Source: Alphaproteobacteria bacterium
GTDB lineage: Bacteria; Pseudomonadota; Alphaproteobacteria; UBA6615
Assembly (NCBI GenBank): GCA_021774575.1
Contig: JAJFIX010000045.1
Span: 206,561-270,560, forward strand
DNA length: 64,000 bases
Direction of reading: 5' to 3'
Shown here: piece after piece, positions 11,585 to 16,182 of the stretch
How positions within the stretch are numbered: position 1 is the stretch's first letter
How the letters are laid out: each line of letters opens with the position of its first letter
Notes under the pieces: model-generated
Seen by the model: only the letters and a program-made list of their open reading frames with translations
The model's database searches: none
Told to the model about the DNA's origin: nothing
Made by a program: the position numbers and the translations under genes

Positions 11585-12238
11585 TTAATCGCTATCTGTT
11601 CCACCACCGGCAGGATCGGCATTGCGACCAGTGTCATTGTCTGTACCGCGGCCGGCGACATCGCTGCCACCTGTATCACTGTCGGTTCCCTGGCCGGCAG
11701 GGTCGCCAAAGCGGCCGGTGTCATTATCGGTGCCACGACCAATGGGATCACCACCACCGCCGCCGCCGCCAACATCAGTATCAGTACCTCCGCCTGCGGG
11801 ATCGGCATTGCGACCAGCGTCATTATCGGTGCCGCGACCGACGGGATCACCGCCACCAACACCGTCACTGTCGGTACCACGGCCAGCCGGGTCGGCATTG
11901 CGACCTGTGTCATTATCGCTGCCGCGACCTGCCGGATCCGCATTTCTGCCGCCACCGGCGGGATCTGCCTCAATCGTTACGTCGGAATCGGTACCGCGTC
12001 CGGCTGGATCGGCCCGCTTACCTGTATCATTATCGCTGCCACGACCGGCATTATCAGCAAATGACGTGGTATCGGAATCTGTTGCATGGGATTTACCCGA
12101 AGAAACCATCACCGCAGCACCGGCGGCTGTCGCACCAATTGTTGCCAACGCTTTGCGCCGATCAACGGCTTCGCGGGTTACTATATCGCTGTCTGTAAGG
12201 GAGCGAGTCGTCTTATCATTCTTCTTTTTTCGGCTCAT
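11585..12238 (-). CDS. Exported acidic glycine/aspartate repeat protein
   Basis: 217-residue protein of no family known to me. Residues 1-26 are basic/polar; a twin-arginine (DRRKAL, 26-31) precedes a hydrophobic alanine/glycine stretch (31-46) and a possible AxA-like processing site near SHA/TD, so a Tat-like export signal is plausible. Residues 63-217 are about eleven tandem units of roughly 14 residues alternating ADPAGRG with DxDxG-type loops (GSDNDTG, GTDSDTG), reminiscent of calcium-binding aspartate loops. The chain ends inside a unit. The ATG at 12238 follows AGAGGTGCGCT, a good ribosome site. The opposite strand also stays open for about 218 codons, but as a proline/serine-rich mirror without such signals. 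Confidence 0.7.
   Translation of the reverse strand: MSRKKKNDKTTRSLTDSDIVTREAVDRRKALATIGATAAGAAVMVSSGKSHATDSDTTSFADNAGRGSDNDTGKRADPAGRGTDSDVTIEADPAGGGRNADPAGRGSDNDTGRNADPAGRGTDSDGVGGGDPVGRGTDNDAGRNADPAGGGTDTDVGGGGGGGDPIGRGTDNDTGRFGDPAGQGTDSDTGGSDVAGRGTDNDTGRNADPAGGGTDSD
11588..12052 (-). repeat. Degenerate tandem coding repeat (~42 bp units)
   Basis: About eleven imperfect units of roughly 36-50 bases encoding [A/G]DPAG[R/G]G followed by [T/S]D[S/N]DTG-like peptides. Unit length varies and one unit contains a run of seven glycines, so the array has probably expanded and contracted by slippage or unequal exchange. It is in frame throughout the exported repeat protein and is not a CRISPR array. 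Confidence 0.85.
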
Positions 12239-12385: not shown

Positions 12386-13741
12386 TCAGCGCCAAATGCG
12401 CTGCCACCAAGGCCGTCCGTCGTTTCCGATCAGGCGGACGTCCATTGATTGGCCATTTTCTTCCATTCTCTCCAGGATATCCGCGACTTTCCAGCCGGTC
12501 AGGCCGGCCAAGGTTATGGCTTCGCTGGCAAATCGTTTCGGCAGACTACCGAGATAGGCCTCTGCCGCTTGGCACTGGGGGGCACCGTCCCACGGATGGC
12601 GCAGGATATACCGGCCTTGAAAGGTCTCGCGATCATTTGTTGCCCTGAGCATAAGGTCCTGGGGGAAATTTTCGGCGTCGTATCGTACATGCAGGCGGGT
12701 CACGAAGACATCCTGGGCGCCGCCGGAACTGCGCCCGTTCTCGGCCCAAAAAACACCCAATTCCCGCAATTCTTGGCCGGTCAGCGGGTCTGCTGCGCAG
12801 GGGTCGCACCAACTCATATCCCAGGCATATTCAACAAACACCGCGTCATAATCTTGCGCCATGTATTGGCGATCAAACATTGACCGGTAAAACCCGTCAA
12901 ATTCCTCACGCACGAATATCGGCACGTCAACAACCGAGGGAACCTCCACCGTCTCATAGTTTTTCGCCTCGACACGCCCGGTTCGGGTCAGCGCAAAAAC
13001 AAACATGTCCTGAGGACCGGCGGAATTGACCATGCCGAGCCGGATTGGTAGCATAAATTCTTCCGACTCGAAGGCAATTTGCAGCGGTCGGAGATAAGTC
13101 GAGCCGATACGCGCCTGCTCTTCCAAATTGACCTCGGCAACGAAGAATTTCATGCCGTTTTCAATATATTCGGCGAGCACCGGCAAGGCCGCCTCGGGTG
13201 TCTGATATCCATTTTCCGTCAGCCAGATTTGCAGACCATCACTCTCCTCAGCCGACAAAATGAGAATGTTATATTCACCGACCGTGTATTCCGCCTCGAC
13301 CGTCACCCCAAGTGAGCGATTACGAGCCTCGCTTTCCATTGGTGCCGGGCTCGGCATCGCCCGGAAAAGCCCACTCGCATCATCGAACTCATCAAATCGA
13401 CGACACGGATCTGGATCGAAAAGCTCGACCAAACGGGGGCTGGTATAGGCGTCCAAATGATCAACGATTGCGTTTTCGGTAACGTGGATCTGGCCCTCCG
13501 CCAGTACCGTTGGAACCGGAACAACCATGGCAAATTCGGACGCCTCACCGCGATAATCGCTGGCCATGGTGACCACCGTGCGATCACCATCGCGCACCAT
13601 CACCACCTTCGACGCATCGTTGAAAAGCTCGGTATCTGCCTTGGCGACATAGAAACCACAGAATGCCTGCGCCGGCATCGTCGGCGCGAGCAAAGCGCCA
13701 ACCCCGAGAGCAATGAGTGAAATTCTACTAAAAATCCGCAT
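12386..13741 (-). CDS. DUF2330 domain-containing exported protein
   Basis: 451-residue secreted or periplasmic protein with a signal peptide (MRIFSRISLIALGVGALLAP, cleavage near AQA/FC). The mature protein begins CGFYVAKADTELFNDASKVV, followed by VVPVPTVL and VDHLDAYTSPRLVELFDPDPC, which match the N-terminal pattern of DUF2330 proteins. Cysteines occur in pairs (for example WCDPC near residue 315), consistent with disulfides in the periplasm. No biochemical function is established for the family. The ATG at 13741 follows AGGAGAAAATAAG. It is divergent from the sigma-factor gene, sharing a 155-base promoter region. Confidence 0.8.
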   Translation of the reverse strand: MRIFSRISLIALGVGALLAPTMPAQAFCGFYVAKADTELFNDASKVVMVRDGDRTVVTMASDYRGEASEFAMVVPVPTVLAEGQIHVTENAIVDHLDAYTSPRLVELFDPDPCRRFDEFDDASGLFRAMPSPAPMESEARNRSLGVTVEAEYTVGEYNILILSAEESDGLQIWLTENGYQTPEAALPVLAEYIENGMKFFVAEVNLEEQARIGSTYLRPLQIAFESEEFMLPIRLGMVNSAGPQDMFVFALTRTGRVEAKNYETVEVPSVVDVPIFVREEFDGFYRSMFDRQYMAQDYDAVFVEYAWDMSWCDPCAADPLTGQELRELGVFWAENGRSSGGAQDVFVTRLHVRYDAENFPQDLMLRATNDRETFQGRYILRHPWDGAPQCQAAEAYLGSLPKRFASEAITLAGLTGWKVADILERMEENGQSMDVRLIGNDGRPWWQRIWR

Positions 13742-13896
13742 CTTATTTTCTCCTAAAAGGAGGCATAGAAATCAGCCCCGGAAAATTGGAAGGGTGAAAC
13801 TCAACCCATGCAAAGGTCAGACGGACCGGCCTCAAATTTCTTTCAAAAAATTTGCCAAAGAGCCCATTTAAGCGCGCCAATAGGGTAGAAAGAAGT

Positions 13897-15003
13897 ATGT
13901 CCCGGAACAAAAATTGGTACCTAGTCGAAGCTGTCATCAGTGGCGACGGCAAGGCCTGGAGCGCCTTTGTCGACCGGATGGCGGATGTAATTTATTCCGC
14001 CGCGCTGATGGTCTTTCCTGCCGATGAGGCCGAGGCCGAGTCGCTGCGCCTATTCGAGAGGTTGCGCGCCAATGATTTTGCGGCATTGCGCGATTATGAC
14101 GGGCGCAGCCATCTCGAAACCTTTCTGACATTGCGGCTCGCCGAGCTCCTGATCGAACGCATACTTGGGCTTTTAATCGACGACTCGGATCGCGGCTGGG
14201 CCGCATTTCAAGAATTCTATGAAAATGATATCCGTCGTCTGGTGGCCCGCAATTTTCCCACCGTAACCGCCCTTGAAGACGGTAGTAGCGTCGAGGACAA
14301 AATACAGGATGTCTACGAGAAGCTCATCGCCAATGATTACAAGCGTTTGCGCGGGTTTGGCGGCAAGGGGAGCTTTACCGGCTATGTCCGCAAAACCGTG
14401 TCGCATATCTGCGCCGACCTACGGCGCTCTATGATCGGTCGCCGACGGCTGCCCAGTGCAATTGAAAAGTTACCCGCTCTCGAACAGCAAATTTTCCGGC
14501 AAATTCAATGGCACCGGACGCGCGCCGACGAACTTATCCATACCCTGCGCGACAGCGACGGACACGCCTATGAGAGTAGCGAGATTCAAGCCGCATTAGC
14601 CACGGTCGACAAAATCATCGCCGAGATCAACACCCCGGAACGCCCGACAGGACGCAATACCATCCGCATCGATGGAGACGACAATCTGGCACTAGCCGTT
14701 ACCAGTCGCCTGTCCGACAGCGGCGCCACGCCCGAGGAGGCGGTCATCGAGGCACAATCCGACACAGCGTGGGAGAAATTGCTATCTTGCCTGTCCATCG
14801 CAATGGAGCGATTGCCCGAAGATGCAAGACTTTATCTGCGCTACCGATATCTCGAAATTCCGCCATTGGCTCCCCGCGATATTGCGCCGCTAATGCGCAT
14901 CCCCATCACCGAAATTTATCGCCGACGTCAGAGCTGGGAAACCGCCTTAGCGGCAGAGCTTTCTTCCCTCGGTATCGATAATCTGGAGGCCTTGTCCGTC
15001 TAG
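13897..15003 (+). CDS. Atypical RNA polymerase sigma-70-like factor with apparent tandem region 2
   Basis: 368-residue ECF-like sigma factor, much longer than the usual ~180-200. Residues 101-180 look like sigma region 2 (SVEDKIQDVYEKLIAND, then GSFTGYVRKTVSHICADLRR). Residues 21-86 resemble the same module: FERLRANDFAALR aligns with YEKLIANDYKRLR, each followed by a similar helix. A long linker with a helical part (185-290) leads to a region-4-like helix-turn-helix (295-355, LPEDARLYLRYRYLE...DIAPLMRIPITEIYRRRQSW). The ATG at 13897 follows AGAAAG. Start is uncertain because the frame is open upstream to 13852. The next gene, 18 bases downstream, is a membrane protein likely to be its anti-sigma factor. 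Confidence 0.75.
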   Translation: MSRNKNWYLVEAVISGDGKAWSAFVDRMADVIYSAALMVFPADEAEAESLRLFERLRANDFAALRDYDGRSHLETFLTLRLAELLIERILGLLIDDSDRGWAAFQEFYENDIRRLVARNFPTVTALEDGSSVEDKIQDVYEKLIANDYKRLRGFGGKGSFTGYVRKTVSHICADLRRSMIGRRRLPSAIEKLPALEQQIFRQIQWHRTRADELIHTLRDSDGHAYESSEIQAALATVDKIIAEINTPERPTGRNTIRIDGDDNLALAVTSRLSDSGATPEEAVIEAQSDTAWEKLLSCLSIAMERLPEDARLYLRYRYLEIPPLAPRDIAPLMRIPITEIYRRRQSWETALAAELSSLGIDNLEALSV

Positions 15004-15021
15004 GACATTGGAGACCGGACC

Positions 15022-16182
15022 ATGACCGATAAATATCAAGATGAACAAATATCCTCTCTCGCCAATATTCTGTTCGGTGAAACCGAGGGCGAGAAGGAAG
15101 TGAGTGCGCGGCCACTGACCGATATTGGCCGGGCGCGCTTGCATGATCTAGCGGCGTTTATTGACTCCAATGACCGACCCGGCGGCGGCGAAATCGCCAG
15201 CAATGATCTCGCCGCCTATCTCGACGACGCACTGAGTGACGCCGAGCAATCCGACTTAGAAAGCAGGCTTCTTGCCGATAGCGACCTTCGCCACGAGTTG
15301 CACGCAGCCCTTCACGAGCTAGACCGGCACGCGATGGCCTTGCGCAAAGCCCCCAAAAGCCTGATTGCCGAGGCCAAATCTATGGGGGCCTCCGGCCAAA
15401 CTAGCCCGGCGATGCCGATGGCCCGCCAGCGTAGGTTTAGCCGCTGGCTGACACCGATGTCGGCGTTCGCCTCCTTCGGACTGGTCAGCATCGTTTTGAT
15501 CGCCGTCGCGACCTATGACACTCCCGACCCTTCCGGCACAGGCGAACTCGTTGAGCCGATGGCGCTCATGCAAGACCTTGCTCCCCCAGATCCCGCCCCC
15601 ATGGATTTGGCAGAAAGTCGGTCTCCGAAACCGGTGACGGAAGACGAAGTCGCGCGCCTTGATGACCAGGTCGCGGCGGTTCCGCCGCCACAACCGTCGG
15701 CGCGCGCCAACGAAGGTTTCGAAAGTCGCGACAGCGTCGGTTTGGCCGCGCCAGCCGAGGCCGAAGCAGAAATTTTTGCCGACCAGTTTTCAGTTGAAAC
15801 CAATATCGAAGTCGGCGCCGCAATCGATCGGGCCTTAACCGTCTATGCGACCACCCAAGACGAGGTGGAGAAAGAGCAGGCCAAAGCAGTCCTGATCGCG
15901 GCAATTACCGATGCCGCGCCGGATGCAGAAATTGACACGAAATCGATACTTGAAATTGGTACGGCTAAAATTAGTGCGGGCGATACCGACGCGGAAAAAT
16001 TGTTTCGATCCCGCACAGAAGAAGACGCAGCGCCACGCGCGCTAGCACCAGGCGCAACCGGCGAAGGTGGCTCTATCGATGCCACTGCCGATGCCACTGC
16101 CGATGCCACTGCCGCGCCCGCTCGAATCGACCATGTGACCATTGGGCCCGACGGAGATATCACCTGGATAATCGCGCGATAG
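15022..16182 (+). CDS. Putative membrane anti-sigma factor
   Basis: 386-residue single-pass protein. Residues ~60-105 (SNDLAAYLDDALSDAEQSDLE...LLADSDLRHELHAAL) resemble the helical cytoplasmic domain of anti-sigma factors, without the zinc-binding cysteines. One transmembrane helix follows a basic stretch (about residues 146-166, MSAFASFGLVSIVLIAVATY). The remaining ~220 residues would be periplasmic, rich in Asp, Ala and Pro, with a DATADATADATA insert. It starts 18 bases after the sigma gene, the standard sigma/anti-sigma arrangement, and so probably holds that factor inactive at the membrane until a signal arrives. The signal is unknown. Confidence 0.65.
   Translation: MTDKYQDEQISSLANILFGETEGEKEVSARPLTDIGRARLHDLAAFIDSNDRPGGGEIASNDLAAYLDDALSDAEQSDLESRLLADSDLRHELHAALHELDRHAMALRKAPKSLIAEAKSMGASGQTSPAMPMARQRRFSRWLTPMSAFASFGLVSIVLIAVATYDTPDPSGTGELVEPMALMQDLAPPDPAPMDLAESRSPKPVTEDEVARLDDQVAAVPPPQPSARANEGFESRDSVGLAAPAEAEAEIFADQFSVETNIEVGAAIDRALTVYATTQDEVEKEQAKAVLIAAITDAAPDAEIDTKSILEIGTAKISAGDTDAEKLFRSRTEEDAAPRALAPGATGEGGSIDATADATADATAAPARIDHVTIGPDGDITWIIAR
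16078..16113 (+). repeat. Three tandem 12-bp repeats in the anti-sigma gene
   Basis: Three identical copies of GATGCCACTGCC in frame, encoding (DATA)3 in the periplasmic tail. Exact copies suggest recent slippage; a change in copy number would keep the frame. Confidence 0.9.

Follow-up and report, generated by a model that had tools for sequence, protein, structure and literature searches.

The ECF type of sigma-70 factors (group 4, NCBIfam model TIGR02937) is normally made of a region 2 followed by a region 4. In a canonical region 2, the acidic/Q motif of region 2.2 touches the polymerase clamp, and the basic residues of regions 2.3 and 2.4 serve DNA. Some ECF factors (for example ECF41, ECF36 and the Planctomycete factors extended at the N-terminus) also carry N- or C-terminal extensions for which regulation is the likely role; the extensions described are SnoaL-like, anti-sigma or other domains (PMC3426412, PMC8999054, PMC8103513). 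We found none described as a second region 2, nor any precedent for a second region 2 within one sigma factor in the open literature that we searched; the main ECF reclassification paper may mention it. According to a 2021 review, there is no mechanistic information on regulation by ECF N-terminal extensions (PMC8103513). Class I anti-sigma domains are known to contact sigma2 at regions 2.1/2.2 by their helix 4 (PMC7406223), and in the EcfG-NepR-PhyR partner switch the sigma-like domain of PhyR, without itself acting as a sigma, binds the anti-sigma and frees the true sigma (PMC4598750).

We studied a sigma factor gene of the window (the whole stretch of 64,000 nucleotides that was analysed) whose product resembles ECF factors by its region 2 and region 4, by a probable operon with a membrane anti-sigma and by the lack of a true region 3 match. 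It differs from them by an extra, degenerate N-terminal region 2 (copy 1), by a middle domain and by a length of about twice the usual one. As in the extended ECF factors, a fused extension would play a regulatory part. The likeness to PhyR, which occurs in the same bacterial class, lies in a sigma-like domain apparently unable to act as a sigma which could engage an anti-sigma. However, PhyR is a response regulator in its own right, with a receiver domain and both sigma2-like and sigma4-like parts, whereas here a sigma2-like domain is added in cis to a sigma, and neither Pfam nor the AlphaFold2 model of the window protein gave a receiver domain. The comparison is one of possible function, not of membership.

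Layout of the protein and distribution of the architecture

The coordinates of the gene, of its domains and of the following gene are given in Table 1. The protein successively comprises a degenerate sigma2, a sigma2, a sigma4-like domain, a disordered linker and a sigma4, which makes four folded domains in 368 aa, compared to regions 2 and 4 only, in about 200 aa, for the ECF norm. The full-length AlphaFold2 model (mean pLDDT 82; pTM 0.56, which means that the inter-domain confidence is modest) displays two sets of region-2 helices, the middle helical domain, the low-confidence stretch and the C-terminal domain. The linker has an ECF-like acidic TPEEAV motif ahead of sigma4. TIGR02937 matches residues 101-345 (E 6.9e-10) with 38.8 bits, slightly below the curated cut-off of 42.9, and one of the homologues described below, that of genome G444, lies above this cut-off with 54.6 bits. 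A region 2 followed by a region 4, as in any ECF factor, is recovered by hhalign with copy 2 (95.9%) and the last domain (97.0%). Pfam gives a weak match to copy 2 only and does not detect copy 1 on its own; with NCBIfam, residues 1-100 taken alone give weak matches only, four out of five of which are to sigma models.

Table 1. Position of the sigma factor gene, of the domains of its product and of the next gene in the window
Feature	Positions	Strand	Description
Sigma factor gene	13897..15003	+	Intact ORF; ATG 13897, stop 15001-15003, 368 aa
Copy 1, degenerate region 2 (putative pseudo-sigma2), residues 6-95	13912..14181	+	Fold and profile; 2.2 motif and 2.4 basic residues lost
Copy-1 helix in the 2.3/2.4 position, residues 73-95, FLTLRLAELLIERILGLLI	14113..14181	+	Hydrophobic, non-basic; AlphaFold2 model, alignment, Kyte-Doolittle
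Copy 2, region 2, likely working sigma2, residues 97-182	14185..14442	+	2.2 motif EDKIQDVY, basic 2.4 SHICADLRRSMIGRRR; Pfam, NCBIfam, hhalign
Middle helical domain, weakly region-4-like, residues 186-245	14452..14631	+	hhalign; occupies the region 3 position of larger sigmas
Low-confidence linker, residues 246-278	14632..14730	+	pLDDT <50 at residues 247-276
C-terminal region 4, residues 279-357	14731..14967	+	hhalign of family profile against ECF region 4: 97.0%, E 8e-11
Anti-sigma-like membrane protein, 386 aa	15022..16182	+	NCBIfam anti-sigma E 3.8e-6; TM segment ~146-164

The full architecture was found in two other proteins: P0005, from the metagenome-assembled alphaproteobacterium KW1-S21_141 (G030), which is 31-32% identical to the window protein, and a 25% identical homologue in a Mesorhizobium-like genome (G444), where it occurs in one of the 99 sampled species of the genus. 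No fourth member appeared in 1873 genome look-ups (overlapping, and mostly within the same class and phylum), the 23 further genomes of the order all lack the architecture, and pattern scans of genome contigs recovered the G030 homologue alone. The double-region-2 architecture is rare and scattered, and its carriers are widely separated. A frameshift or an annotation artefact was ruled out, since no stop interrupts the frame and homologues that are 31% and 25% identical have the same architecture. A phage or plasmid origin was also rejected, with no tblastn match in plasmids, none in viral contigs and no useful PHROG for the focal protein, and so was membership in a defence system, the sigma proteins being without PADLOC match.

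A related family of about 290 aa with a single region 2 (L011-L021 and L027) occurs in other proteobacterial families (f189, f192 and f197). Its members lack copy 1 and otherwise have the same order of copy-2 domain, middle domain, linker and region 4, and the next gene codes for a zinc-finger (zf-HC2-like) anti-sigma where this was checked. In this family, a caspase-domain protein (L031) or a protein kinase (L034) is encoded close by; others have reported ECF sigma factors in the neighbourhood of caspase/EACC2 and TRADD-N genes (PMC8195603).

Copy 1 is a sigma region 2

The original prediction saw two region-2 modules in the first half of the protein, with related motifs, which are indeed present at residues 53-65 (FERLRANDFAALR) and 140-152 (YEKLIANDYKRLR). 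Aligned with one another, the two copies give a BLASTP E of 3e-5 across 74 residues, with 22% identity. We modelled residues 1-98 with AlphaFold2, using as input the three N-terminal homologous sequences only, and obtained a pLDDT of 89. When this model is compared to the PDB, ranks 1 to 47 are all occupied by sigma factors or sigma-factor complexes, and the model resembles region 2 of sigmaE, SigW, SigC and AlgU. The best match is the sigmaE region 2 of 2map (probability 1.00, TM 0.67/0.68); 4lup, another sigmaE region 2, is superimposed over 85 columns with a probability of 1.00 and an rmsd of 2.5 A, and for these leading sigmaE structures the rmsd ranges over 2.5-3.5 A.

An HMM built from four ordinary ECF factors matches the protein twice, at copy 1 (i-E 2.8e-11) and at copy 2 (4e-6). 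As these four factors had been retrieved by their resemblance to copy 1, which introduces a bias, we repeated the profile test with 13 ECF factors found via TIGR02937 in the three genomes that carry the architecture, independently of copy 1. The signal is weaker and still clear: hhalign aligns the copy-1 profile to region 2 of the 13 factors with a score of 39.6 (probability 92.9, E 4e-7), while the best score over 100 column shuffles is 18.6. For copy 2, the score is 48.4 (95.9%). Neither copy matches the region 2 of sigma groups 1-3 (0.1-0.2%). The shuffles and the fold rule out a chance likeness of the two halves, and the N-terminal hundred residues, far from being an unrelated helical bundle, are sigma-like by fold, by ECF profile and by ECF HMM. 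Hence, we confirmed that residues 6-95 and 97-182 are both sigma region-2 domains.

Degeneration of copy 1

In our alignment, the Q/acidic motif of region 2.2 is lost in copy 1 of all three homologues and kept in copy 2 of two of them. The basic 2.3/2.4 helix is kept in copy 2 of all three (net charge +6, +2 and +5), and the net charge of the corresponding copy-1 helix is -1, 0 and -3. All the other 26 region-2 sequences aligned, which are the copy 2s, the single-region-2 family and 17 ordinary ECF factors, have a net charge of +2 to +6 at this place. Copy 1 has kept the fold and region 2.1 and lost both the clamp-binding 2.2 motif and the basic DNA face, the 2.3/2.4 surface having turned neutral, acidic or hydrophobic. 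Its identity between homologues is 33, 22 and 24%, compared to 31, 29 and 37% for copy 2. This means that copy 1 is conserved about as much as the other domains, so that a function probably explains its retention. It had been proposed that one copy may bind the core polymerase and the other be regulatory; the pattern of residues fits such a division, with copy 2 on the side of the polymerase.

Possible roles of copy 1

We consider it fairly probable, judging from the residues kept and lost, that copy 1 is a regulatory pseudo-sigma2 and copy 2 the active sigma2. As in ECF factors generally, copy 2 would bind the -10 element and the clamp of the polymerase, and the C-terminal domain would read the -35 element. 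Deprived of the 2.2 motif and of the basic 2.3/2.4 DNA face, copy 1 should be unable to form a holoenzyme or to melt DNA, and it would act in cis as a regulator. Most likely, it would offer a surface that engages the neighbouring membrane anti-sigma, as can be expected from the contact that class I anti-sigma domains make with regions 2.1/2.2 by helix 4; alternatively, it would pack on copy 2 or on the middle domain until it is released. The data fit an anti-sigma docking site and an intramolecular lid alike, and permit no firm choice between these two forms. Three points weaken the proposal as a whole: the pattern of degeneration is drawn from three sequences only; G444 has no recognisable anti-sigma next to its sigma gene, and as its neighbours differ, the partner of copy 1 cannot be the same everywhere; and an anti-sigma docking at the usual 2.1/2.2 site would also be weakened by the altered 2.2 of copy 1. 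If the proposal is true, sigma mimicry is not confined to the trans form known from PhyR but can exist in cis too, and the fused pseudo-sigma2 would provide a simple and testable case of regulation by an ECF N-terminal extension.

The lid deserves consideration in its own right, being a special form of the preceding proposal which needs no contact with an anti-sigma: the hydrophobic 2.3/2.4 helix of copy 1 would pack on copy 2 or on the middle domain and block DNA or the clamp until a signal arrives, making copy 1 an autoinhibitory or structural element. The most hydrophobic Kyte-Doolittle stretch of the whole protein is found inside this helix (73-95), which in the AlphaFold2 model is followed almost at once by helix 97-119, the first of copy 2, and copy 1 is kept in all three proteins even though the neighbouring genes differ. 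However, the arrangement is read from a model of modest inter-domain confidence, and in the two genomes out of three where an anti-sigma is adjacent, a second brake would be redundant. We regard the lid as possible, with the odds rather against it.

Middle domain and linker

In the original prediction, a long linker leads to a single region 4. The C-terminal region 4 is indeed there, whereas what was taken for a linker is partly folded and contains the middle domain. When the middle domain of the three double-region-2 proteins is aligned by hhalign to the ECF region 4, the match extends over the whole length (62%) with a score of 26, the maximum score in the shuffle control being 17. It falls to 10% when the wider family is included, and this is why the domain is best called region-4-like. 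It also exists in the single-region-2 family (94.6%). Against region 3 of RpoD and RpoH, hhalign gives 0.5% only, which rules out that this domain is a region 3 and leaves the protein without a true one. The middle domain may show a region-4-like fold at the place where larger sigma factors have their region 3.

This raises the question of whether the protein is a merged or nested pair of complete sigma factors, one functional (copy 2 and the last sigma4) and the other decayed (copy 1 and the middle domain) and serving as a mimic in cis. The full-length match of the middle domain to the ECF region 4 rather than to region 3 speaks for this, as does the fact that copies 1 and 2 group with different relatives (see below). 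On the other hand, the match is weak in the wider family, and the middle domain is present in the single-region-2 family, which has no copy 1, so that the two were probably not gained together. We hold such a merger for unlikely, while keeping it in view. The same doubtful standing applies to the mechanism that it suggests, in which a decayed sigma2, with a decayed sigma4-like domain, would compete for the anti-sigma or shield the working domains, and thereby perform a PhyR-like switch within one polypeptide.

Origin of the two copies

In a tree of region-2 sequences, the three copy 2s group with the single-region-2 family (UFBoot 92). The copy 1s of the window and G030 cluster with ordinary ECF factors (UFBoot 90), and that of G444 forms a long branch without a clear place. 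The alignment behind this tree is short (about 80 residues), and the ordinary ECF factors of this clade had been chosen for their resemblance to copy 1. As the copies group with different relatives, a fusion of domains is likelier than a tandem duplication, and the simplest reading, which we hold with moderate confidence, is that a sigma of the single-region-2 type acquired the region 2 of an ECF factor by fusion.

The tandem duplication put forward by the original prediction is not favoured by this tree, in which the copy 1s of two proteins out of three are separated from their copy 2s. One could still think of a recent duplication of one region 2 with both copies functional, serving two promoter types or two polymerase registers, since the copies are 22% identical and both have four residues inserted in 2.2 when compared to most ECF factors. 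But the same insertion is found in the ordinary ECF factors L002, L004, L006 and L025 and in the single-region-2 family, and the DNA-binding charge of copy 1 is gone in all three proteins; we find this scenario very improbable. That copy 1 is a functionless, decaying remnant, as its degenerate motifs and its rare and scattered architecture might suggest, is very improbable too, for it changes at a rate similar to that of the other domains, its model is well folded and confident, and three genomes far apart from one another have retained it in proteins that are 25-32% identical.

Neighbouring genes

The anti-sigma-like gene starts 18 bp downstream of the sigma gene, and the two genes probably form an operon. 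Its product (P0004) has an N-terminal anti-sigma-like domain, a match (E 3.8e-6) that does not reach the curated cut-off, and one TM segment. A homologue of it (P0006, E 1e-5) directly follows the sigma gene of G030. A sigma factor with an adjacent membrane-bound anti-sigma is therefore seen in the window and in G030, that is in two of the three genomes with a double-region-2 sigma. In G444 (L029:3672-12362), where no recognisable anti-sigma adjoins the sigma gene, the latter overlaps a 152-aa gene of unknown family, which is followed by genes for an nSTAND1 NTPase, an Hsp70 and a Sel1-repeat protein. This apparent operon looks like a sigma-coupled system for signalling or conflict.

On the other side of the sigma gene of the window, and divergent from it over 155 bp, a DUF2330 protein (E 3e-80) is encoded on the minus strand (12386-13741), and the two genes could share a promoter region. 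A candidate GAAAC / GTCAGA pair with a spacing of ~16 bp was noticed by eye near 13795-13820. Further away on the minus strand (11585-12238) lies the gene of a 217-aa protein belonging to no Pfam family, which has a Tat-like N-terminal stretch (RRKALATIGATAAGAAVM) and then many (D/A)PAGRGTDxD repeats. Finally, a perfect 12-bp tandem repeat (3.2 copies) at 16077-16114, near the 3' end of the anti-sigma-like gene, is possibly a length-variable tract.
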